DNA from: a bacterium
Lineage (GTDB): Bacteria; Bacteroidota; Bacteroidia; Flavobacteriales_D; Crocinitomicaceae
Length of the DNA: 43,136 nucleotides
Assembly: GCA_024742305.1 (NCBI GenBank)
Contig: JANSYQ010000027.1
Span: forward strand, 1 to 43,136
Direction: 5' to 3'
Shown here: positions 851-42,237 of the stretch, piece by piece
How positions within the stretch are numbered: the first letter of the stretch is position 1
How the letters are laid out: every line of letters begins with the position of its first letter
Translations under genes and position numbers: made by a program
Notes under the pieces: model-generated
Told to the model about the DNA's origin: nothing
What the model saw: only the letters and a program-made list of their open reading frames with translations
Databases searched by the model: none

Positions 851-2347
851 TTACTCTTTCACCAGCACTTCTGTCCCCACTCTTCCATCACTCTCCAATC
901 GCAAAGTATAGATACCGCTTTTCAATACAGAAACATCAACGCTATTAGACGGTAAATCGCCTTCGAGAACAACTCTCCCGGCCAGATCGACGATGGAATA
1001 CTTCATCATTTCTCCTTCCAAGCCATCAATAAACAATTCGTTTTGAACCGGGTTCGGGTAGACTTCAACCTCCAAACCATTCAACGTTGCTACGTTCTGA
1101 ATTCCGTCTTCATACACTCGCACTTGCCCCGCATTGGTCCAATTACCATCGTTTAAAGGTGCGCCAATAGCAGCGATTCTACCTGTGTAGTTCATCGCCA
1201 CAGCCGTTCCAAATTCATCGCTGGCAGCATCGCCTTCAATTTCGTCTAAAAGTTGCCAATCATTGTTCGACCACTCATAAATCTTAGCGTGACCGGAGCC
1301 CAGTCCATTAGCATTGTGCTTCGTGCCTCCAACAATGAGTCTCGTCCCGTTACCGGAAATTGCTACGGAAAACCCAAACCAATCGTTGGCGTTCTCGCCA
1401 TATACGGAAGAACCGTGCTGCACCCAGCTATTACCCTGACGCTTGTATACAGTAGCAATCCCAGTATTGGTTCCGTTATCATCATTTTTATAAGCTCCCA
1501 CAGCGATTAATGTATCTCCAGCGTAGGACATAGAAATAGACTCGCCAAATTGGTCCTCAATGGAATCACCTGGAATTAAATCGACCGTTTGTGCCCAATC
1601 ATTTCCATTCCACTCATAAGTTCTAACCGCACCGGACCCGTTATTCCCTGATGCGCCGTCATTTCTCGGTGCTCCGAAGGTTACGATAAGTCCATCCGGT
1701 GATACCTCAATATCAGCGCCACCACGTGTTCCACCTGGAGGTGGACCGTCTATCGTTGTTCCTTTTTGAACCCAATCAGTATTATCCCATTCGAAATTTA
1801 AAACTTCACCATTACTTGACCACTCTGCTCCAACGGCTAGTCGATAACCATCCGCAGACAAGGCCACCGCGGAACCAAACATCCTAAATGCGTTTTCGTA
1901 TTCAATGGTTGTTCCTCGTTGCATCCAACTTGCTCCATCCCACTCAAATATTTTTGCTCTCCCAACGGTTCCTACTCCAATATTAATACTTGATACTCCG
2001 GGTGCTCCGATTGCCAACACTGTGCCATCATCCGACAAATCAACGGCATGTCCAAACTTGTTCCATTCCACATCCCCGATCAAATCCTGTCCTTTTTGCA
2101 CCCAATCCGTTCCGCTCCATTCAAACACGCGTACCATTCCCACTTCGCCATTAAGCGTGCTATGTTCCGGTGCCCCTACCGCCATTATAAATCCATCTTG
2201 AGACATCGCAATGCATGACCCGAACAAATCTTGTGACGCTTGACCATAAATATCAGCGCCTTTTTGCGTCCATTGGGCGTTTGCAAATGAAGTAATTGCT
2301 AGAACACCGAAAAAAGAAAGGAAATAGTGACTTTTTAAGAATTTCAT
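851..2347 (-). CDS. Secreted beta-propeller (FG-GAP-like) protein with T9SS sorting domain
   Basis: About 498 residues from the ATG at 2347; an upstream in-frame ATG at 2389 would add 14 residues before an otherwise perfect signal peptide (MKFLKSHYF...FANAQ), so 2347 is preferred. The mature protein is made of about seven repeats of roughly 55 residues, each running 'FG-x-S-V-A-L-S-DG ... LAIGAP ... G-x-V-R-V-FEW ... W-x-Q-G'. These are FG-GAP/integrin-alpha-like blades and probably form a propeller. The last 75 or so residues are a T9SS type A sorting domain (VEVYPNPVQNELFIDG ... SGIYTLRLES ... EVLVKE), so export would be by the system whose porU/porV genes lie at 32-37 kb. The ligand is unknown; adhesion is a reasonable inference. 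Confidence 0.85.
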   Translation of the reverse strand: MKFLKSHYFLSFFGVLAITSFANAQWTQKGADIYGQASQDLFGSCIAMSQDGFIMAVGAPEHSTLNGEVGMVRVFEWSGTDWVQKGQDLIGDVEWNKFGHAVDLSDDGTVLAIGAPGVSSINIGVGTVGRAKIFEWDGASWMQRGTTIEYENAFRMFGSAVALSADGYRLAVGAEWSSNGEVLNFEWDNTDWVQKGTTIDGPPPGGTRGGADIEVSPDGLIVTFGAPRNDGASGNNGSGAVRTYEWNGNDWAQTVDLIPGDSIEDQFGESISMSYAGDTLIAVGAYKNDDNGTNTGIATVYKRQGNSWVQHGSSVYGENANDWFGFSVAISGNGTRLIVGGTKHNANGLGSGHAKIYEWSNNDWQLLDEIEGDAASDEFGTAVAMNYTGRIAAIGAPLNDGNWTNAGQVRVYEDGIQNVATLNGLEVEVYPNPVQNELFIDGLEGEMMKYSIVDLAGRVVLEGDLPSNSVDVSVLKSGIYTLRLESDGRVGTEVLVKE

Positions 2348-2472
2348 AATGTGAATTATTTGTGCATCGAAATTAAAGAAAAATTTCACTTTTAATCAAC
2401 ATTGCAATCAATTCAACGAACAATGTTTTATGGATAACTCCCCTGCTCTCTCGCACAGCAACGGGAAAGATG

Positions 2473-2480
2473 TATATTTG
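2473..2480 (+). promoter_or_regulatory. Bacteroidota-type -7 box (TATATTTG)
   Basis: Exact match to TAnnTTTG, 22 bases before the ATG at 2503. This would give a leader of roughly 15 nt. No clear -33 TTTG at the expected distance, so only the -7 element is supported. Confidence 0.4.
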
Positions 2481-2502
2481 AGCGAACGATTAACTCAAGG
2501 GC

Positions 2503-2772
2503 ATGGGAATTGGAGGTATTATTATAGAGAGCATGAAGCGCACAATGAAGGAAAACGATGCGCTGCGCCCGTCCAAAAGAAAGACACCCAATGATTCCAA
2601 AGAGGGACGACTCTCACGAAATGTTCATTTCGAAAAACGTGAGTTTACTCAGGAGCAACTTCTTGAACACCAAGCTCGACTTAAAAAGAATAAACGATCC
2701 GATCAAATTAGAATGATTATCCTTTTCGCTATTATCGCCGGAGTGATCGGCGTCATTGCCATTTATGGATAA
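2503..2772 (+). CDS. Small single-pass membrane protein, unknown
   Basis: A protein of 89 residues that I do not recognise. Residues 11-66 are strongly charged and hydrophilic (many Lys, Arg, Glu; runs such as SKRKTPND and RLKKNKRSDQ). A single hydrophobic helix follows at about 70-88 (MIILFAIIAGVIGVIAIYG), ending the protein. This suggests a C-tail-anchored protein with its basic part in the cytoplasm. An in-frame ATG at 2533 (residue 11) is an alternative start and would remove the odd hydrophobic N-terminal stretch GIGGIII; GGAGG lies about 17 bases before it. The -7 box at 2473-2480 supports a transcript starting just upstream. Real gene probable from codon pattern and clean topology; function unknown. 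Confidence 0.6.
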   Translation: MGIGGIIIESMKRTMKENDALRPSKRKTPNDSKEGRLSRNVHFEKREFTQEQLLEHQARLKKNKRSDQIRMIILFAIIAGVIGVIAIYG

Positions 2773-2939
2773 TTTGAACGCCACGCGTGGACGCTCGTAC
2801 CTTGCCAGTTCATCAATATCTTTTAATTATTTAATAAATAATATCTTATAGATTTGATAACTATTAATACATGTTAATATTATTCATGGTAGATTCTTTT
2901 CACCTAATTTTAAGGCAGTCGTAAGCGACTGATGATACT

Positions 2940-3629
2940 ATGACACAATTTGAGCTCGACATACTAGCAAAAAAAGGACGTTCTCAAGTAGAGGAAGGTT
3001 TATTTCCGAGTGAAATTTTGGAAAAGGTGAAGGACAGACAAAAACGAAAGTGGTTGTTTGATGCTATCTTCTCACCTCAGTATCGTCGTATTAGTAACCA
3101 AATGAGCGAAACTGAAAAGTTGCGCCGAGGAAAGTTGTTGAGTGTTGAGATGGCGTTTGAGAACTACATGAAAAGCATTAAGATCTTCCGTTTCAATGCT
3201 GCCATGTTGGTGATTATTGGACTCATCATGGTCACCATTGAGTTGATCCGTCCGATGAACGGTCTCGCCTTTGGGATGATTACACTGATAGAAAGTACGG
3301 TAGTTATCGCTGTATCATTGAATCAAGTATATATTCGAAAGTATGGATTGTTGCTGTTCAACGCCTTAGTTGCTTCCTCAATCATCGAAATTGCTTTTTT
3401 CCAGTTTCCACTTCCGGTACTCTACGGTAGTGATTTAGACGTAACTTCTCGATTGGAAGGATTTTGGCAGATTTTCAACGGTCTGTCTCCTTTCCTGTAC
3501 ATCGCTGCGAAATTTGGGATACTGATTAGTATTGCCTTCTCTTCAGATCGTGTTCGGAAGTTTATTCAACGAAAACACGACTACGAAACAACAGATGCAA
3601 CTGTCAATGATTGCGAGGTAAAACAGTAA
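2940..3629 (+). CDS. Multi-pass membrane protein, unknown
   Basis: A protein of 229 residues. The first 80 residues are hydrophilic and Lys/Arg/Glu-rich. Four hydrophobic helices follow, at about 83-104, 106-126, 133-153 and 180-198, then a charged C-terminal tail. No catalytic motif or known family signature is visible. The 167 bases upstream are AT-rich and contain no gene. The gene converges on the SDR gene at 3668 across a 38-base repeat spacer. It is probably expressed on its own. It could be a conserved Bacteroidota inner-membrane protein, but I cannot assign a role. Confidence 0.7.
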   Translation: MTQFELDILAKKGRSQVEEGLFPSEILEKVKDRQKRKWLFDAIFSPQYRRISNQMSETEKLRRGKLLSVEMAFENYMKSIKIFRFNAAMLVIIGLIMVTIELIRPMNGLAFGMITLIESTVVIAVSLNQVYIRKYGLLLFNALVASSIIEIAFFQFPLPVLYGSDLDVTSRLEGFWQIFNGLSPFLYIAAKFGILISIAFSSDRVRKFIQRKHDYETTDATVNDCEVKQ

Positions 3630-3667
3630 GCGCACTTCTCACTTATCACCAATCACCTCTTACTTCT
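3630..3667. repeat. Degenerate 7-base tandem repeat in a convergent spacer
   Basis: Read on the minus strand the whole spacer breaks into heptads: AGTAAGA, GGTGATT, GGTGATA, AGTGAGA, AGTG. It fills the gap between two convergent stop codons. It is one of four spacers in this window with a period near 7 bases; the others are at 6296, 23189 and 29480. Confidence 0.5.
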
Positions 3668-4456
3668 TTAGGTTGCCGACTGCTTGCGAATTACTTTCCA
3701 AAAAATACTCGGGAAAAGTCGCTTTAACGTGACAGCTTTGATTTCTTTATTACCGATCAACACTTCCTTCTTCTCTTTAGAAACGGCTTGAATCAATTGT
3801 CTTGCGCATTCTTCAGCTGACATTCCCGTGGCTTGATTGTGATCCATTTCTCCATGTTTCTCCCCCGATTTATTCAGGGCATTTACCGAGATATTCGTAT
3901 TGATTTTTCCAGGACAGGCAATGGTCACGCAAATACCGTTTTTCTCCTCCTCTAGCATCAAACTTTCATAAAATCCATGCAAGGCGTGCTTCGAGGCGCT
4001 GTAGGCACTGCGCAAAAAGAATCCAAACTTACCTGCAATGCTTGAAATAACCAAAAAGTGACCAGACTGCTGCTCTTGAAAATACGGCAATACGGCTTTC
4101 GTAAGGGCGATGTTACCAAAGTAATTCACCTCCATAATCCGGCGGTCAACTTCCATAGGTGTTTCATGGGCTTCGGAACGTTGCGACATTCCTCCGTTAT
4201 TCACCAAGATATCAATGCGCTTCATTTCTTGCTGCACATGTTTAGCCAACTCCTGAAAATTGTCGGATTTAGCCAGGTCAAGCGCCAAGACAATATGTTG
4301 GTCCGCATTAGACAGCTCCGACCTCAACAATTCAAGTGCTTCCGTATTCCGTGCGGACAGCACCAAACGCGCCCCAGCTTCGGCCCATTGATGCGCTAAT
4401 GCCTTCCCAATTCCTGAGGAGGCACCTGTGATCCAAATGACTTTATCTTGATACAT
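3668..4456 (-). CDS. Short-chain dehydrogenase/reductase (SDR family)
   Basis: A classical SDR of 262 residues, the normal family length. The Rossmann-fold cofactor loop TGASSGIG is at 10-17, with an Arg at 36 (SARN) that favours NADP(H). NNGG (86-89) and N111 match the conserved structural and catalytic Asn. The active site is S138/S139, Y152 and K156 (YSASK). The region after the active site (HALHGFYESLMLEE) resembles the DHRS7-like group that Bacteroidota annotate simply as SDR family oxidoreductase. The substrate is not predictable. The C-terminal 30 residues are basic and hydrophobic (LKRLFPSIFWKVIRK) and may touch the membrane. A terminator sits just upstream, so the gene is transcribed separately from the one at 4517. 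Confidence 0.9.
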   Translation of the reverse strand: MYQDKVIWITGASSGIGKALAHQWAEAGARLVLSARNTEALELLRSELSNADQHIVLALDLAKSDNFQELAKHVQQEMKRIDILVNNGGMSQRSEAHETPMEVDRRIMEVNYFGNIALTKAVLPYFQEQQSGHFLVISSIAGKFGFFLRSAYSASKHALHGFYESLMLEEEKNGICVTIACPGKINTNISVNALNKSGEKHGEMDHNQATGMSAEECARQLIQAVSKEKKEVLIGNKEIKAVTLKRLFPSIFWKVIRKQSAT

Positions 4457-4461
4457 CTGCT

Positions 4462-4494
4462 AAAAAAAATCCCGCCCCAACAAGTGGAACGGGA
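4462..4494 (-). terminator. Rho-independent terminator of the 4517-4939 gene
   Basis: On the minus strand, TCCCGTTCC pairs with GGGGCGGGA (9 pairs including two G-U) around a 7-base loop, followed by eight T. It lies between the end of the exported-protein gene and the start of the SDR gene. Confidence 0.75.
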
Positions 4495-4516
4495 AGGTAT
4501 TTTTTGGTATGAATTT

Positions 4517-4939
4517 CTATAAATCGTCCGGAAGCTCTACTTCCTTCAATGTCTTCTGTTTCGGCTTCAGTTGATCAATGAACACGATCTTGAACTTCTG
4601 ACCGTCGGCCGTTTTGATCATTTCCGAAATTCCATTGACAATCACAGGAGGCTGTCCTTTCATGTTATAGAATTTTGCATCCATCAATTCGTATGTATCA
4701 TCGTCGTACTGTAAAAATACAGAGACAATTTTTCCATTCTCCACGCGTGTTTTTCCTAGAACACAACGTGCACCTCCGTCTTCAAAGAAGCTGATATAAA
4801 CATGTCGATGCATTTCGTCTGCCACGGCGTTGGCACCTCTTTCGTCGAAAGCTTTCTGCAAACGCAAGAAACAATTTTGCGAATATCCTGCGGTGGAAAA
4901 TAACACTCCAAAGAACAGAAACAGTAATCCTTTTTTCAT
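4517..4939 (-). CDS. Small exported protein, unknown
   Basis: 140 residues from the ATG at 4939; a start at 4948 would add only three residues. [21 protein letters not shown] is a clear Sec signal peptide. The mature part has two cysteines ([10 protein letters not shown] near the start and ARCVLG in the middle), which could form a disulfide, and is mostly beta-like with alternating hydrophobic residues. No family is recognised and there is no sorting domain, so a periplasmic location is inferred. It is followed by its own terminator and diverges from gmhA. Confidence 0.7.
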
Positions 4940-5048
4940 ATTTAGCATGTTTGTTGAGCCATGGCTCAGGGTTTCAAATATAACAAGTTCAATCCAATAT
5001 TTTGCCGCCTGCTATTTAAATTGTTTATTTTGCGACAAATTCGTTTGG

Positions 5049-5618
5049 ATGGGTAAAAATCAAATAGCAGACCAATTTTCGCATGCTTTGGAAATTTTGC
5101 AAAAATTTAACAAAGAAGAAAATTTCGAAAAAATCCGAAAGGCAGGCGACATCATGGTTTCAGCGATTCGAAGCGAAGGAAAGATAATTAGCTGTGGAAA
5201 CGGTGGTTCTATGTGTGATGCGATGCATTTTGCCGAGGAACTCACCGGGCGTTTTCGAGATGATCGCCCATCCATTGGAGCCATTTCCATCTCAGATCCC
5301 AGTCATATTTCTTGTGTAGGAAACGATTACGGTTTCGATCATATCTTTTCAAGATTTGTGGAAGGAATAGGTCGAAAAGGCGATGTATTGTTAGCCATTT
5401 CCACTTCGGGTAACTCGAAGAATGTTTTAAACGCAATTGAAGTAGCGAAAGAAAAAGGGATGTTTGTTGTAGGGCTCACTGGAAAAACAGGCGGAGCCAT
5501 GGCAGAACGCTGCGATGTGGAAATTCGAGCGCCTCATTCCGATTACGCCGACCGTGCGCAGGAGATTCATATCAAAGTGATTCACGCCCTGATTCAACAC
5601 ATCGAAAATAATCTATAA
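5049..5618 (+). CDS. gmhA: Phosphoheptose isomerase GmhA
   Basis: Converts sedoheptulose 7-phosphate to D-glycero-D-manno-heptose 7-phosphate, the first step of ADP-heptose synthesis for the LPS inner core; cytoplasmic. From the ATG at 5049 it is 189 residues (E. coli GmhA is 192). The frame stays open 219 bases further upstream, but that part overlaps the divergent gene and looks non-coding. SIS-fold motifs are intact: CGNGGS (49-54), the catalytic Glu in [10 protein letters not shown] (E64), TSGNS (119-123), and Q171 and H179 in [11 protein letters not shown]. These correspond to E65, Q172 and H180 of E. coli. No other heptose genes adjoin it, so the pathway is split on this genome. Together with kdsD/kdsA in this window it indicates a Kdo/heptose-containing LPS. 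Confidence 0.92.
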
Positions 5619-5625
5619 TCAATTA

Positions 5626-5654
5626 TTGTCAAGGAAGTGAAAACACTATCTTTG
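5626..5654 (+). promoter_or_regulatory. Bacteroidota promoter upstream of the TerB-like gene
   Basis: A -33-like TTG (5626-5628) lies 18 bases before an exact -7 box TATCTTTG (5647-5654). The predicted leader, about 85 nt, contains a perfect 6-base hairpin CTACTC-TTTT-GAGTAG at 5669-5684. Confidence 0.5.
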
Positions 5655-5744
5655 CGGCGTCGCAGAAACTACTCTTTTGAGTAGAGTAAAAAACATTTAG
5701 TACAATTATCGGTGAAGGCGACGCGTCGAATTTTTACGTAAACA

Positions 5745-6167
5745 ATGGGAACAATTGCACAAATTTTTGAATCGGGAGAGCGCAGAGCGCAGAAAGGGCT
5801 TTTTAACAACCTTGTTATGTTGGCTCGCGTTGATGGTGAAGTAGCAGCATCTGAGCAAAACTTACTCAAGCGTATCGCCAGTCGATTATCCCTAACTGAC
5901 GAACAGGTAAAGGAAATCATGGACCATCCTGATTCATACCCAATGGTACCCCCATCTAACAAAGAAGAGCGATTAGAACGCTTCATTCAGTTCATTGAAA
6001 TGGTTTGTATTGATGGTGTTGTGGACCCAACGGAGGAAGATTTAGCGAACAAATACGGAGTCGCACTAGGGTTTGATAGTGATGATCTAAACGAAATCGA
6101 AACTACGATTATCGAGCACTTCAAAGCTGGTAAAAACCGCAGCGAAATTTTGGAAGCGATGATGTAA
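5745..6167 (+). CDS. TerB-like (tellurite resistance TerB family) protein
   Basis: A cytoplasmic-looking, mostly helical protein of 140 residues with no signal peptide. It carries the TerB signature twice: LARVDGEVAASE (26-37) and MVCIDGVVDPTE (86-97), each an ADG-type acidic loop with a downstream Glu, as expected for the duplicated helical TerB/DjlA-type fold. These acidic loops are thought to bind metal. Bacteroidota encode many stand-alone TerB-like proteins whose role is unknown; the name does not show real tellurite resistance, and no terC/terD/terZ gene is near. It has its own promoter and a strong terminator, so it is probably monocistronic. Confidence 0.75.
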   Translation: MGTIAQIFESGERRAQKGLFNNLVMLARVDGEVAASEQNLLKRIASRLSLTDEQVKEIMDHPDSYPMVPPSNKEERLERFIQFIEMVCIDGVVDPTEEDLANKYGVALGFDSDDLNEIETTIIEHFKAGKNRSEILEAMM

Positions 6168-13078: not shown

Positions 13079-14176
13079 TTAGTGCTGAACCACCAATCGT
13101 TTGCTCACCAATCCGTTATCGGATGAAATACGCACTGTGTACATTCCATTTGCCAAATCTGAAGTATTCAAGGCATGCGTTGTACGTCCAGCTGGTACAT
13201 CATTTAAAGTTTCCGTCGAAATAATTTGTCCCTGTGCATTGATCAACTCCAAGGTAACATCCTGCATCTCGGTAGATTGAATGGCTAGCGTTGTATGGGT
13301 TGATGAAGGATTTGGGTAGAGTTCTGCAGACGCAATGCTTGGGATATTTTCATTCAATCCTGCGGTGCCCGGTAAAGCATACGTTGCTTGATACACCTCT
13401 TTTGTATCAGTATCCTGCACCCAAATGGCTACGCCTAAGTCGGAGAATTCCTCCACACTGTGCTCAACCGCATTATTGATTGGATTTGAAGCATCTGCCG
13501 GAAGTCGATAATTCCCAGGAAAAGTATGCGTACCTGACCATTGATATGCTTCTCCGGCAACCATCCCCGGAAGTGCCTCACCCGAAAGATTGCCGCCTAC
13601 AAAACTTTTAAATACATGCTGAAAGGATGTCTCTCCATTAGTACCAACATTTCCTGTTGTCTCGTACTCAAAAATGGCCATGAACAATCGAACCGAGGAA
13701 CCATTGGGAATATTGACTAAGGCATCCATATCTACGGTAATGTCCACCGTTTGGGCAACTGCATCTACCGAATAAACACCTGAAATTGTCGCCTTTGGTG
13801 CATTTTGTAATGCCGTTGCAACATCTGTATTAGTTAAAGCATTCGTATTCATTTTTGTCTGTCCATCTAAAATCACAGCAGGTACGGGAACAGCCGGAAA
13901 TCCATTGATAGTGTCCGCGTACAAAGCAAAAGCACGATTTAATGCATCAGGAACAAAGTAAGAATCGCCATCTCCGGGAAAAGACATTTGATACTTCAAT
14001 AGAACGGTATTACTCTCATTCTGCCCTGAACTCAGTATGTTTTCAAGATTTTGATTGGCCGATAAACAACCCGGTGAAGTGGAGGATGTCAACGCTTCCA
14101 CTAGTGTAACACGGTTTTGAGCTTGAGTGGTAAATACGGCTAAAAAAGAACATAGAATAAAGTAAAATCCTTTCAT
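13079..14176 (-). CDS. Omp28-like thioredoxin-fold protein with T9SS sorting domain (copy A)
   Basis: 365 residues from the ATG at 14176 (upstream in-frame starts at 14206 and 14179 precede a good signal peptide MKGFYFILCSFLAVFTTQAQ). The mature N-terminal half is the Omp28-related module, a thioredoxin-like domain: NRVTLVEALTSSTSPGC, then LKYQMSFPGDGDSYF, then VPAVILDGQT. In the neighbouring copy the redox position reads TSSTCPPC; here it reads TSSTSPGC, so the first Cys is Ser and a disulfide oxidoreductase reaction is unlikely. A central beta domain follows (MAIFEYETTGN...). The last 75 or so residues are a T9SS type A sorting domain (AELYPNPSSTHTTLAIQS ... LVSKRLVVQH), nearly identical to that of copy B. 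Probably surface-exposed or secreted. Confidence 0.87.
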   Translation of the reverse strand: MKGFYFILCSFLAVFTTQAQNRVTLVEALTSSTSPGCLSANQNLENILSSGQNESNTVLLKYQMSFPGDGDSYFVPDALNRAFALYADTINGFPAVPVPAVILDGQTKMNTNALTNTDVATALQNAPKATISGVYSVDAVAQTVDITVDMDALVNIPNGSSVRLFMAIFEYETTGNVGTNGETSFQHVFKSFVGGNLSGEALPGMVAGEAYQWSGTHTFPGNYRLPADASNPINNAVEHSVEEFSDLGVAIWVQDTDTKEVYQATYALPGTAGLNENIPSIASAELYPNPSSTHTTLAIQSTEMQDVTLELINAQGQIISTETLNDVPAGRTTHALNTSDLANGMYTVRISSDNGLVSKRLVVQH

Positions 14177-14367: not shown

Positions 14368-15430
14368 TTAGTGCTGAACAACCAATCGTTTGCTCACCAA
14401 TCCGTTTTCGGATGAAATACGCACCGTATACATTCCGTTCGCAAGATTAGCTGTGTTCATTTCGTGCGTTGTACGTCCGGCTGGCACATTATTTAAAGTT
14501 TCCGTTGAAATTATTTGTCCCTGTGCATTGATCAACTCCAAGGTTACATCCTGCATCTCGATAGATTGAATGGCTACCGTTGTATTTGTTGATGAAGGAT
14601 TTGGATACAATTTCGCAGAGGCGATTGCATTGGCATTTTCTTCCAAACCAACAACGCCCGGCACAGCATAAGCCGCTTGGTATACAGTTCGGTCCAATAG
14701 TGTTTGTACCCAAATAGCTACACCCAAATCAGAGAATTCTTCGACACTGTGTTCTGTAGCATGATCAATTGGATCTTGTGCACTTGCAGGCAAACGGTAA
14801 TTCCCTTCGAATGTGTAGGACCCCGTCCAGTTGTACGTTTCTCCCGCCATCATTGGCGACATCACAACGCCGCCCACACCATTAATCATCTTTTTCATAA
14901 CGTGCTCAAACTGCGTTTCACCGTTCGACTCAACATTATTTGATGTTTGATACTCAAAGATCGCCATGTACAAACGAACTCCGGGAGGTGTATTTTCCAA
15001 CATTTCTACATCCACATCCAAAGAAACGGTCTGCGTTGCTTCGTCAATTTGATAGATTCCTGAAATTAATGCTTTTGGTGCAACTGCATGTACTGCATCC
15101 AAGTCACCTTGCGATAAGTTGTTCGGATTTAAACTCGTCTGCCCATCCAAGTATGAAGAAGGCACCTGATACTCCATATCCGTCTGCTCGATCTCCGCCT
15201 TCAACGGTGTAGTATGGATCACCATTTCCGGGCCAATCCAATTGATACTTAATCGAAACCGTATTGTTATCGTTTTGTCCATTACCCAAAACCGATTCTA
15301 ATTGTTGATTCCCTGGGTTACAAGGAGGACAAGTTGAAGAAGTAAAAGTTTCCACCACGGAAACACGATTTTGCGCCTGAAGCGCTAGCGGTAATGTCAA
15401 TAATCCTAAGAGAAGGTAGCTTTTTTTCAT
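14368..15430 (-). pseudogene. Omp28-like protein with T9SS sorting domain (copy B), split by a 2-base frameshift
   Basis: The first frame (start 15430) encodes a signal peptide (MKKSYLLLGLLTLPLALQAQ), an intact thioredoxin-type motif ETFTSSTCPPC (28-37) and the module up to YGVSG (85-89). It then leaves frame and stops at 15104. The second frame continues the homology from VPSSYLDGQT to a full sorting domain ending LVSKRLVVQH at 14368. Inserting two bases at 15163-15166 (GGTGCC to GGTGTGCC) restores YGVSG-VPSSYLDGQT with no residue lost or gained and gives one protein of about 354 residues, collinear with copy A. So this is a 2-base loss in a GTGT run: a recent pseudogene, a phase-variable state or a sequence error. 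Of the two copies, only this one kept the CPPC motif. Confidence 0.85.
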
Positions 15431-23350: not shown

Positions 23351-23956
23351 ATGAAAGAAGAAATGCGCCAAATAATTGAATCGGAGATTGAGGCGATTCG
23401 CAATATTCCACTCGACGGAAGCATTGAATCCGCTGTGGAGTGTATTCTCCAACAGGTTCACCAAGAAGGAGGAAAAGTGGTCATCAGCGGAATGGGTAAG
23501 GCCGGTCAAATTGGTATTAACATTGCCACAACGCTGTCTTCGACAGGAACACCATCTGTTTTCTTGCATCCAAGTGAGGCGCAACACGGAGATTTGGGAA
23601 TGCTTCAGAAAGATGATGTTCTATTTCTTATCTCCAACTCGGGTAAAACGAATGAGATTTTGGATCTCGTCCATCTTTCACAGCGACTATACGAAGGAAT
23701 GCCAATTATCGGTTTAACGGGAAACCCTGACGGTGAATTGAGCGAGTACTGCGATATCACCATTTGTACCGGATCACCGAAAGAAGTATGTCCGTTGGGA
23801 CTTACTCCCACTACCTCCACTACCGTAATGACCGTGGTTGGAGATCTTATCGTAGTTCAAACGATGAAAGCCATCGGATTTACCAAAGAGGCTTACGCCA
23901 AACGTCACCATAGCGGCTACCTTGGAAAAAAAGCAAAGAATGAAGTATCAGAATAA
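23351..23956 (+). CDS. kdsD: Arabinose-5-phosphate isomerase, SIS-only type
   Basis: Interconverts D-ribulose 5-phosphate and D-arabinose 5-phosphate, the first step of Kdo synthesis. About 201 residues from the ATG at 23351; the frame is open to a TTG at 23336 but ATG is preferred. Family motifs: SGMGKAGQIG, STGTPSVFLHPSEAQHGDLGML, ISNSGKTNEI, CPLGLTPTTSTT and the terminal RHHSGYLGKKA. E. coli KdsD is about 328 residues and has two CBS domains after the SIS domain; here they are missing, the short single-domain form known from Bacteroidota. Loss of CBS implies loss of nucleotide-type allosteric control. kdsA follows with a 17-base overlap, which strongly supports the role. Confidence 0.9.
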   Translation: MKEEMRQIIESEIEAIRNIPLDGSIESAVECILQQVHQEGGKVVISGMGKAGQIGINIATTLSSTGTPSVFLHPSEAQHGDLGMLQKDDVLFLISNSGKTNEILDLVHLSQRLYEGMPIIGLTGNPDGELSEYCDITICTGSPKEVCPLGLTPTTSTTVMTVVGDLIVVQTMKAIGFTKEAYAKRHHSGYLGKKAKNEVSE

Positions 23957-24731
23957 ATTGACATTAATCGCTGGACCATGTGCCATCGAAGACGATGAAA
24001 TGCCCTTCATCATTGGGCGTGAGGTGAAAGCCATCTGCGACCGATTAGGCATTGATTACATTTTCAAAGGAAGCTACCGCAAGGCCAACCGCTCTCGCCT
24101 CGACTCTTTTACTGGTATTGGAGATGAGTTGGCGCTGGGAATACTTCAAAGCGTAGGAAAGGAACTCGGCGTTGAGACAATTACCGATGTACACGAAAGC
24201 CATGAGCCTGAAAAAGTGGCCAAATATGTAGACAATCTTCAAATTCCTGCCTTCCTCTGCCGACAAACTGAATTGCTACTAGCAGCCGGTAAAACAGATT
24301 GCGGTGTGAACATTAAAAAGGGACAATTCCTATCACCGGAAGCTATGATGTTTCCGCTAGAAAAAGTGAGGTCAACTGGAAATGATAAAGTTTGGCTGTG
24401 CGAACGTGGTACAACATTTGGCTACTCAGATTTGATCGTTGATGCTACTTCGATATCTCGTATGAAGGAGTTGAATGCACCGGTAATTATGGATTGTACA
24501 CACGCTGTTCAGAAACCGAACAAAACGGAAGGCGTAACAGGTGGTGACCCAAAACTTATTGAAACGATTACATTATCGGCTATAGCTACAGGAGCAGATG
24601 GACTTTTTATGGAAGTACATCCTGACCCGAAAACGGCAAAAAGCGATCCACACACGATGTTACAGTTGGATAAATTGGAAGGGATTTTGGAGAAGTGCGT
24701 TGCGATTCGACAGGCGCTCTCTAAACAATAG
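23940..24731 (+). CDS. kdsA: Kdo-8-phosphate synthase
   Basis: Condenses phosphoenolpyruvate with arabinose 5-phosphate to 3-deoxy-D-manno-octulosonate 8-phosphate for the LPS inner core. 263 residues from the ATG at 23940; an in-frame TTG at 23922 lies deeper inside kdsD. Motifs: IAGPCAIE near the N-terminus, FKGSYRKANRS, ITDVHE, PAFLCRQTELL, and FMEVHPDP near the C-terminus. The Cys in GPCAIE, with the conserved His, Glu and Asp, marks the metal-dependent class (as in Aquifex), unlike the E. coli enzyme, which has Asn there. Overlap with kdsD indicates a coupled two-gene operon. Confidence 0.96.
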   Translation: MKYQNKLTLIAGPCAIEDDEMPFIIGREVKAICDRLGIDYIFKGSYRKANRSRLDSFTGIGDELALGILQSVGKELGVETITDVHESHEPEKVAKYVDNLQIPAFLCRQTELLLAAGKTDCGVNIKKGQFLSPEAMMFPLEKVRSTGNDKVWLCERGTTFGYSDLIVDATSISRMKELNAPVIMDCTHAVQKPNKTEGVTGGDPKLIETITLSAIATGADGLFMEVHPDPKTAKSDPHTMLQLDKLEGILEKCVAIRQALSKQ

Positions 24732-24758
24732 AAAATACGAAATTCATCGATTAAATCC

Positions 24759-24822
24759 TATTAATTTAACAAGTTCTTGTTCGCCATTTCGCGAACAAGG
24801 TATTTAGCGAATTCGAGAATTT
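24759..24822. repeat. GCGAANNN hairpin repeat element, copy 1
   Basis: Follows the kdsA stop. CTTGTTCGC and GCGAACAAG form a perfect 9-base stem with loop CATTTC (24776-24799). After it the sequence runs in 8-base units GCGAACAA, GGTATTTA, GCGAATTC, GAGAATTT. The block, including the leading AATTTAACAAGTTC, recurs at 42153-42237 with two more units. The rest of the 231-base spacer up to 24962 shows no gene. Confidence 0.75.
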
Positions 24823-40744: not shown

Positions 40745-40782
40745 CGCGCTATCGAACAAACGCACGTTGAAAAATAAAAAAG

Positions 40783-40812
40783 AAGCCTCGACAGATTTGT
40801 CGGGGCTTTTTT
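40783..40812 (+). terminator. Strong terminator between gldJ and murF
   Basis: AAGCCTCGACA (40783-40793) pairs along 11 positions (one G-U) with TGTCGGGGCTT (40798-40808) around tetraloop GATT, followed by T through 40812. It precedes the chosen murF start by 12 bases. Confidence 0.88.
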
Positions 40813-40823
40813 ACTTTAGAAGC

Positions 40824-42116
40824 ATGGAACAGCACCTCACCTCCCCTTTCTACCAAAGCTCAGGAATTTGTATCGATACACGAAAAATCTTCAAGGATTG
40901 TTTATACGTATGCATTAAAGGAGCCAATTTTGATGGCAATACGTTTGCAGAACAAGCTCTCGAACAAGGAGCGAGTCATGTCATCGTTGATAATCCCAAT
41001 TACTTCAAGGAAGGAGGTGAAATGACACTTGTGAAGGATAGCGTCCTCTATTTGCAACAGCTCGCAAATCATCATCGAAATCGCTTTGAAATTCCTTTCA
41101 TTGGCATTACAGGAAGTAATGGAAAAACAACCACGAAGGAGCTTATTCATTCGGTACTCAGTAAAAAATATAAGGTTCTTGCTACAGAAGGTAACCTCAA
41201 CAATCATATTGGTGTTCCGCTTACCTTGTTGCGACTGAAAGATTTCCATGAAGTGGCAATTATAGAAATGGGTGCCAATCACTTTAAAGACATTGAGGAA
41301 CTCAGTGCCATCGCTGAACCTACACACGGTATAATAACTAATATTGGTAAGGCTCATTTGGAAGGATTCGGAAGCTTTGAGGGAGTTCTCAAGACCAAAC
41401 GCGAGCTGTATGATTCCATTGAAACAAACAAAGGAACCATCATCGTTAATGGCGACGACGACATCTTGAAGAAAAACACTCCAGCCGATATCCCACTGGT
41501 TCTTTACGGAGAAGGAGATCATAATTCGGTCCGTGGTAAATTGATTCGTCTCTCCCCTTTCGTGGAAATGACTTGGAACCATGATGAATACGCTTCTGAT
41601 GTGATTCAAACACAAATGATTGGTAAGTATAACTTCTACAATTACCTCGCTGCTGCTGCATTTGGTGTCCACTTTAAAGTTCCAAACAAAAAAATATCCG
41701 CGGCTCTAGAAGAGTACACCCCTACAAACAATCGCTCACAGGTATTTAAGTCGGGAAAAAACACCCTCATTTTAGATTGTTACAATGCCAATCCAACAAG
41801 CATGAAATCCGCATTGGATAGCTTTCAAATGATTTCAGCTGAGAATAAGCTTTTCATTATTGGAGATATGCGTGAGCTTGGAACAGAATCTGAGGCGGAG
41901 CACCAAAAAATCATTGATTTAGTTGAAAAACATAACCTCCGTGGATATACGGTTGGCGAAGAGTTTGGGAATGCTACGTCGGAAAATATTCTTGAGCACT
42001 TTCAGACGGTAGAAGATGCATTGGAACATATTAAGATGAAACCGATTACCGATGCACTATTACTACTAAAGGGATCTAGAGGGATACAGCTTGAGAAACT
42101 GATTGAAACTCTTTAG
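40824..42116 (+). CDS. murF: UDP-MurNAc-tripeptide:D-Ala-D-Ala ligase MurF
   Basis: Adds D-Ala-D-Ala to the UDP-MurNAc-tripeptide, the last cytoplasmic step of the peptidoglycan precursor. 430 residues from the ATG at 40824. The frame is open to a TTG at 40767, but that would place the start upstream of, and translate through, a strong terminator hairpin, so it is rejected. Mur ligase parts: N-terminal UDP-binding domain (SSGICIDTRKIFKDCLYVCIKGANFDG), P-loop GITGSNGKTTTKE (about 94-106), GNLNNHIGVPLTLL, IIEMGANHFKDI, ITNIGKAHLEGFGS, and the C-terminal ligase domain with LDCYNANPTSMKSAL and IIGDMRELG. murF beside gldJ is a recurrent arrangement in Flavobacteriia as I recall. Confidence 0.95.
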   Translation: MEQHLTSPFYQSSGICIDTRKIFKDCLYVCIKGANFDGNTFAEQALEQGASHVIVDNPNYFKEGGEMTLVKDSVLYLQQLANHHRNRFEIPFIGITGSNGKTTTKELIHSVLSKKYKVLATEGNLNNHIGVPLTLLRLKDFHEVAIIEMGANHFKDIEELSAIAEPTHGIITNIGKAHLEGFGSFEGVLKTKRELYDSIETNKGTIIVNGDDDILKKNTPADIPLVLYGEGDHNSVRGKLIRLSPFVEMTWNHDEYASDVIQTQMIGKYNFYNYLAAAAFGVHFKVPNKKISAALEEYTPTNNRSQVFKSGKNTLILDCYNANPTSMKSALDSFQMISAENKLFIIGDMRELGTESEAEHQKIIDLVEKHNLRGYTVGEEFGNATSENILEHFQTVEDALEHIKMKPITDALLLLKGSRGIQLEKLIETL

Positions 42117-42152
42117 GGTACACCAAATATAATTTCGTGATTTTCGAAATCA

Positions 42153-42237
42153 ATTCCTAGGAATTTAACAACTTCTTGTTCGCCATTTCGCGAACAAGCG
42201 AACAAGCGAATACGCGAAATGGCGAATTCTAGAATTT
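42153..42237. repeat. GCGAANNN hairpin repeat element, copy 2
   Basis: Follows the murF stop. It shares with copy 1 (24759) the block TCCTAnnAATTTAACAAnTTC plus the 9-base CTTGTTCGC/GCGAACAAG stem. It then has five consecutive 8-base units: GCGAACAA, GCGAACAA, GCGAATAC, GCGAAATG, GCGAATTC (42190-42229). A longer alternative hairpin also exists: TTCGCCATTTCGCG (42179-42192) is perfectly complementary to CGCGAAATGGCGAA (42213-42226), with a 20-base loop. Confidence 0.8.

Follow-up and report, generated by a model that had tools for sequence, protein, structure and literature searches.

Two intergenic spacers of a Crocinitomicaceae genome, one behind kdsA and the other behind murF, carry copies of one small hairpin element. 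What is this element, how far does it extend, and what keeps its copies alike? We started from the window, a stretch of 43,136 nt belonging to genome G000 (4.09 Mb), and extended the analysis to two related carriers, G007 and G013, and to the 31 other genomes that complete a genus set of 34. The genus was taken as Fluviicola because the G007 loci inspected match contigs of Fluviicola sp. XM-24bin1 identically. Our preferred reading, to which we give a probability of about one half, is that of a REP-like DNA site located at gene ends, with copies kept alike within each genome by short ectopic copying or by co-evolution with a binding factor.

Anatomy and extent of the element family

The original prediction, made from the sequence of the window, described a shared leader, a perfect 9-base hairpin and a tail of 8-base units behind kdsA and murF, with two extra whole units in the murF copy. 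Each of these features was recovered (Table 1), and both gene names were confirmed by TIGR matches above cut-off. The units of copy 1 read GCGAACAA (24791-24798), GGTATTTA, GCGAATTC and GAGAATTT, ending at 24822, and copy 2 has six units spanning 42190-42237. The arms of copy 2 (42175-42183 and 42190-42198) enclose a loop identical to that of copy 1, and the longer 14-bp inverted repeat of this copy forms the stem of its minimum-energy fold (-31.9 kcal/mol, z -6.1). Elsewhere in the window, two 258-nt stretches (13079-13336 and 14368-14625) at the 3' ends of neighbouring minus-strand ORFs are 87% identical, possibly by duplication or gene conversion.

Table 1. Coordinates of the two window copies, their upstream genes and an associated palindrome (window positions unless a locus is named)
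Feature	Position	Strand	Evidence
Copy 1 leader, ATTAAATCCTATTAATTTAACAAGTT	24750..24775	+	shared with copy 2; direct repeat, 83% over a 70-nt alignment
Copy 1 hairpin, perfect 9-bp stem, loop CATTTC	24776..24799	+	22-mer core 14 times in G000 at no more than 2 mismatches
Copy 1 5' arm, CTTGTTCGC	24776-24784	+	sequence
Copy 1 loop, CATTTC	24785-24790	+	sequence
Copy 1 3' arm, GCGAACAAG	24791-24799	+	sequence
Copy 1 tail (8-nt units beyond the 3' arm)	24800..24822	+	38 and 66 copies align gap-free over 65 columns
Copy 2 leader	42149..42174	+	direct repeat with copy 1
Copy 2 hairpin, perfect 9-bp stem, loop CATTTC	42175..42198	+	sequence
Copy 2 tail, with two more units than copy 1	42199..42237	+	sequence
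Copy 2 alternative longer palindrome, 14-bp perfect arms 42179-42192 / 42213-42226	42179..42226	+	minimum-energy fold
kdsA, upstream of copy 1	23940..24731	+	TIGR01362 (KDO8P_synth), 337 bits, above cut-off
murF, upstream of copy 2	40767..42116	+	TIGR01143, 377 bits, above cut-off
(A)CCGTGCCTGCGGCAGGCAGG-type palindrome	L247:3004-3088; L257:3008-3092; L256 near 2982; L270 near 3010; L271 near 3090		

Whole-genome searches revealed many more copies than the two of the window. The 22-mer core occurs eight times exactly in G000, and its reversed pattern is absent. The motif TTCGNCATTTNNCGAA has 20 matches there (control 1; one match, C54:38199, looks like coding sequence), 10 in G007 and 6 in G013, and from none to two in each of the 31 other genus genomes, where the control also gives 0-2. 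A first covariance model was built from alignment A2, whose 38 copies had been found through hairpin or TTCG...CGAA patterns. Applied to the genus at E up to 0.1, with up to 150 candidates scored per genome, it returned 33, 31 and 19 matches in G000, G007 and G013, some of them second hits on the reverse strand; it found none in 29 of the 31 other genomes and three marginal matches in the remaining two. Re-searching the fetched loci gave 85 matches, nine of which were dropped as reverse-strand duplicates of counted elements; the 76 distinct copies that remained comprise 32 in G000, 26 in G007 and 18 in G013. Two weak G007 matches (C14:91204, C6:22004) and one G013 match (C38:482) stand outside this set. 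The predicted genome-wide family of small repeats that lack coding capacity and vary in unit number is thus borne out by 32 distinct copies in G000 itself. Rfam 15 gave no match to the window at the gathering threshold or to 15 element loci at E up to 1, and the parts of the literature covered by our search held no description of this hairpin-repeat family. A 399-kb sample of G000, inspected for other perfect-hairpin dialects, yielded 48 hairpins, compared with 56 from a single third-order Markov control; none of those listed (9 with a 6-nt loop, or a stem of at least 10) belonged to this family, of which the sample contains one weaker copy, L248 (C54:23972).

The family is written in several dialects. 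Type A, the type of the window, reads approximately CCTTGTTCGCCATTTCGCGAACAAGCGAATTCGCGAATTCTAGGAATTG and type B approximately TTGCTCAAATTCGACAATTCTCGAATTACCAAATTGTATAATTCTAGTAATG; in eights, type B is parsed as AATTCGAC-AATTCTCG-AATTACCA-AATTGTAT-AATTCTAG, and type A keeps the same phase. The GCGAANNN-type units of the original prediction represent a single dialect, and other copies carry AATTNNNN-type units. What the dialects have in common is a palindrome with CATTT or CAATT at its middle, followed by 8-nt units and, in some copies, by a 3' box. The whole element reaches up to about 105 nt and comprises a leader, a hairpin of 22-24 nt, about three units and sometimes the box. In 14 of the 40 copies printed, the best match to a box like CTAACTTATTTAGTTAACC falls at one identical offset (11-18 of 19 positions), and overall 19 of 76 copies show at least 13 matches compared with 5 of 76 shuffled tails. 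Triples of AATT in G000 element loci number 21 at period 8 and 0-1 at ten other periods; in the G000 sample plus the window there are three at period 8 and 0-3 at other periods, and since those three all sit in the single copy L248 there is no general period-8 excess.

A refined model with stricter filters (E up to 0.01) matched 19 of 240 genomes of the family Crocinitomicaceae, three of them the carriers, in a search in which about two chance genomes are expected and E-values are rough. Seven of the 16 non-carriers come from one genus and six from another. Matches beyond the genus include CTGTTCGCAAATTAGCGAACAATCGAATTCTCGAATTC (L315) and TTCGAYATATTGCGAATTCGCGAA-type arrays (L296, L313, L314), from which the grammar of hairpin and 8-nt units seems to extend, in other dialects, into two other genera; some matches are just plain 8-nt tandem arrays. 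Those in G113, G115 and G119 (pure AATTCGAT arrays) and in G184 (a plain AAATTAGC-type array) may be unrelated to the hairpin family. The pure AATTCGAT tandem arrays at L298, L301 and L302 lie in spacers of another genus of the family.

Some copies are interrupted. GC-rich inserts occupy the loop of at least six, L247 and L257 in G000 and L261, L263, L267 and L271 in G007, and L256 is probably a seventh; the model alignment places both L256 and L271 in the wrong register. A GC-rich palindrome, (A)CCGTGCCTGCGGCAGGCAGG or near, lies in the loop, tail or leader of some elements (Table 1) and at one place outside them in the sampled loci (L154 near 6898); it has the look of a further, smaller repeat that accompanies the hairpin element. 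Another insert, resembling AGCTTCGCTGCTGCCTTCGGCGGTC, was found in loops of both A- and B-type G007 copies (L261, L263, L267, L271) and in none of the G000 or G013 copies printed. At L255, two elements (3010-3074 and 3156-3220) with the common leader TTACCTAGGTTGTTAGACA lie in tandem 146 bp apart, as if the whole element had been duplicated locally.

Shared sites, lineage dialects and stem pairing

Comparison by tblastx among all fetched loci identified 34 orthologous pairs at 20 sites (14 between G000 and G007, 8 between G000 and G013, and 12 between G007 and G013), seven of which are occupied in all three genomes. The pairs take in 47 of the 76 copies, a proportion drawn from element-bearing loci and so not a measure of empty-site frequency; two pairs (L130/L157 and L155/L279) have solid flank support on only one side. 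Among the fetched loci, 17 of the 32 G000 copies have no paired site. Flanks of the elements share about 70-84% DNA identity between carriers. At orthologous sites, identity is 0.83 in the core (30 of 34 pairs scorable), 0.65 in the units and 0.51 in the outer spacer, compared with 0.40-0.41 for shuffled spacer. The core is an island of conservation in its flanking spacer.

The two window sites illustrate both persistence and turnover. The kdsA spacer holds an A-type copy in G007 and, in G013, GGTAATTCGACATTTATCGAATTACC with AATT units, a copy first recognised by position alone, where the TTTAACA-type leader is present too. Close kdsA matches (93-100% amino-acid identity) are confined to the three carriers among the 34 genus genomes (next best E about 1e-26), which suggests that the carriers may form a clade. 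At murF, by contrast, no element can be recognised in G007, and G013 carries an inverted repeat of another kind, so element sites do turn over. The murF locus of 27 other genus genomes yielded 26 without the element on inspection and one, L170, that ends too soon. A third hairpin behind murF in G013, CTATATAACTAAATGGTTATATAG, resembles an ArsR-type operator and was kept out of the family. The inverted repeat TATATAACTAAATGGTTATATA, or a close variant, occurs at L283 near 3395 (G013, murF spacer) and at L269 near 3063 (G007); its loop TAAATG is the reverse complement of CATTTA, and the repeat could represent either a third dialect or an operator unrelated to the family.

Copies at shared sites show lineage dialects and concerted evolution. 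The nearest relative of the 47 copies with an orthologue was a same-genome paralogue in 37, a foreign non-orthologous copy in 6 and the orthologue in 4. In this test a copy has many paralogues but only one or two orthologues to choose from; a fairer contrast is that of 37 paralogues with 6 foreign copies, the foreign pool being the larger, with ties credited to the paralogue over the foreign copy (four rows tie to two decimals). Mean identity was 0.653 within and 0.641 between genomes (20 of 2000 permutations); vertical descent is also visible, because orthologues average 0.715 while the gap within and between genomes is small. Arms are often private to a lineage. ATTAGA occurs at six G000 sites and nowhere else, and five of these have a known orthologue, in which the arm is another one (ATTCGA, TTTCGA, ATTGGC or GTTCGC). 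Arm TTTAGC occurs three times, in G013 alone, and GTTCGC 14 times in G000, 13 times in G007 and never in G013, which has the near variant GCTCGC at L165. The 34 orthologous pairs agree in the 6-nt 5' arm in 13 cases and differ in 21, and at shared sites differing arms often still pair. Chimeras also exist that join the 5' arm of one dialect to the 3' arm of another and have broken stems (L251, L130, L266, and 3156-3220 of L255). Likeness to paralogues, private arms and chimeric copies together argue for copying between sites, with the proviso that copies at shared sites are not independent. The suggestion that the repeats are recombination-prone agrees with this homogenisation and with the chimeras, although no recombination event was observed.

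Stem pairing was evaluated in alignment A4, which holds 66 of the 76 copies and leaves out seven not exactly 65 nt long together with L256, L269 and L270. Its covariation score was 0.304, compared with 0.138 when shuffled and at most 0.066 when slid, and its stem cells paired in 82.7% against 71.1%. Two other counts were not above shuffles: 5 of 9 pairs had changes on both sides, against 5.4 after shuffling, and there were 8 pair types, against 10.4. The exchange of a few entire arms, instead of numerous individual pairs, would be expected to give this result. Among 205 pair cells pairing in both orthologues, 21 had changed on both sides. G.T is found in 2 of 372 cells of the five inner pairs, a statistic biased toward pairing because copies were found by the stem motif or, later, by a model with that stem; at pair 12-29 it is not rare (8 of 66). 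Note that covariation in a hairpin family need not signal RNA function.

The main rival to our preferred reading requires no function at all. Slippage of 8 nt would make the tail, and template switching during replication would keep the hairpin perfect and alter both arms at once. In the part of the source consulted, template switching is described as a process that can give rise to stems and mend them, with compensatory changes of several bases (PMC8794818). Seventeen of the 21 two-sided changes lack a possible G.T step, unit numbers vary, and the pure AATTCGAT arrays of another genus (L298, L301, L302) are consistent with such a process. Local events leave unexplained, however, why one arm should stand at six separate G000 sites, five of which have a different arm in the orthologue. 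Furthermore, the core is far better conserved than the spacer, placement is biased (see below), and stem repair does not account for chimeras whose stems are mismatched. We consider this explanation unlikely, if less so than those that follow.

Gene-end placement, mobility and known systems

By our own scoring of gene calls, 74 copies have both neighbours called, 28 in convergent, 40 in co-directional and 6 in divergent spacers; the element is intergenic as well as palindromic and multicopy, a single copy of the 76 (L155) overlapping a gene call. Convergent spacers are enriched in G000 (14 of 32 copies compared with 17 of 147 controls; odds ratio 5.9, P 8e-5), and the deficit of divergent spacers in that genome is not significant (P 0.11). 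In co-directional spacers 31 of 40 copies lie closer to the stop than to the start codon, which together with the convergent enrichment upholds the expected excess near gene 3' ends. Orientation in these spacers is 22 versus 18, with no strand preference. Terminator-like signals mark 13 of 91 gene ends in element spacers (60-900 nt) and 13 of 124 in control spacers (90-700 nt; P 0.41), and one of the former 13 is the element's own hairpin (L277).

These patterns bear on whether the element acts in RNA, as a terminator or a stabilising or processing hairpin at the mRNA 3' end, an explanation to which we give little weight. The placement near stop codons and in convergent spacers would suit it, as would the covariation score and the finding that the window copies fold better than shuffles. 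Yet orientation is nearly balanced, the inner stem has few G.U pairs and Rfam has no match. The intrinsic terminator (a GC-rich stem followed by a T-run) was rejected on the lack of a significant excess of terminator-like signals, and 3'-end processing, one of the roles offered by the original prediction, is not favoured by either orientation or these signals. Scarcity of inner G.T, near-equal orientation, convergent enrichment and the missing terminator excess favour instead that the element is read as DNA rather than as a strand-specific RNA signal. Intrinsic bidirectional terminators likewise place hairpins between convergent genes; the window family differs from them in showing no enrichment of terminator signals and in sharing its sequence among unrelated loci.

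Mobility, the other proposal made for these repeats, did not find support. Twenty sites recur in more than one species and 47 of 76 copies have an orthologue. No match to the transposase domain Y1_Tnp/RAYT (PF01797) turned up in the three carriers, which speaks against RAYT mobilisation, although 13 of the 31 non-carriers do have one. The tags GTAG, CTAC, CGTC or GACG lie near hairpin ends in 4 of 76 copies, and ten proteins encoded near five G000 copies comprise enzymes, an ArsR-type regulator, a DUF6089 protein and one unmatched protein, with no transposase. Within the small part of the unpaired sites that was compared, murF alone shows presence and absence, and it has no clean insertion junction; no insertion junction or target duplication was found at the few empty sites looked at. 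A small mobile element (MITE or REP-like) that re-inserted preferentially into its own copies would make sites look conserved as their sequences were replaced. It would account for the dispersal of copies, the replacement of dialects at fixed sites, the tandem pair 146 bp apart (L255) and the GC-rich palindromes inserted in some loops. Given that no transposase was found, that tags are rare and that no pair with a duplication appeared among the few empty sites looked at, we regard it as improbable, slightly more so than a role in RNA.

Several published systems, cited here from parts of the respective papers, share features with the family. REP/BIME sequences (GTAG REPs with RAYT) are short intergenic palindromes with several classes per genome; different REP classes occur at orthologous RAYT genes of related strains (PMC3686654), and REPs are binding sites for several proteins, usually in more than 100 copies (PMC2817692). 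Unlike these, the window family lacks a GTAG head and RAYT, has 18-32 copies and an 8-nt unit tail, and keeps shared sites at which arms differ by lineage; it is not a GTAG REP, because both the tag and the RAYT tests failed. GTAG REPs are recognised by a 5' tetranucleotide, GTAG or GTGG, beside the palindrome and by a RAYT gene that the repeat flanks; the tag count in our hairpins covered GTAG and CGTC in both senses. In the broad sense, REPs are intergenic, palindromic, short, similar and multicopy, 14-40 nt long with one common consensus (PMC12306157). The window family is intergenic, palindromic and multicopy; its hairpin measures 22-24 nt, the whole element up to about 105 nt, and it comes in several dialects. 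CGTC REPs are palindromic repeats of five phyla including Bacteroidetes and, like the window family, have no dedicated transposase (PMC3733652); they differ in their tag, since GTAG or CGTC in either sense is rare near our hairpins. TAACTGA repeats are intergenic tandem heptamers, present in a few Bacteroidetes too, with no predicted hairpin and an orientation mostly toward start codons (PMC4679880). The window family resembles them in its short intergenic tandem units, yet its units are degenerate octamers joined to a hairpin and mostly nearer stop codons. Neisseriaceae DNA uptake sequences (DUS) are likewise species-wide dialects of one dispersed motif and form inverted pairs associated with terminators (PMC3630211), but an uptake or recognition word whose dialects are kept by biased transformation is very improbable here, since DUS are short and number 1543 to 5918 per genome (PMC3630211) and the window family consists of a few dozen long, structured elements.

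Proposed copying between sites and its significance

We return to the preferred reading of a REP-like DNA site, whose function and homogenisation mechanism we infer. The window family may be REP-like in how it works and a variant apart from the GTAG REPs. The BIMEs of Escherichia coli serve as binding sites for the host proteins gyrase, IHF and Pol I. By analogy, a candidate host factor would read the element as DNA, either as a duplex palindrome or as an extruded hairpin, at transcription boundaries, and the site would be retained because it is read. The element would thus work like a REP/BIME without a RAYT moving its copies. Short ectopic copying between copies, aided by template switching inside each hairpin, could homogenise them; co-evolution of the element with its binding factor is an alternative route.

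More tentatively, the element class may be set by grammar rather than by sequence, that is, by a CATTT/CAATT hairpin with AATT-phased 8-nt units, with positions inherited and the copies of a genome drifting together to a new dialect. Dispersed repeats of bacteria are usually explained by transposition or drift. If the grammar view is true, these elements would represent transposase-free concerted evolution of dispersed non-coding sites, which would imply an undescribed copying route, such as single-strand-templated conversion, or a co-evolving DNA-binding protein. A family whose members stay in place while their sequences switch jointly would make the homogenisation of unlinked non-coding sites testable in a free-living bacterium.
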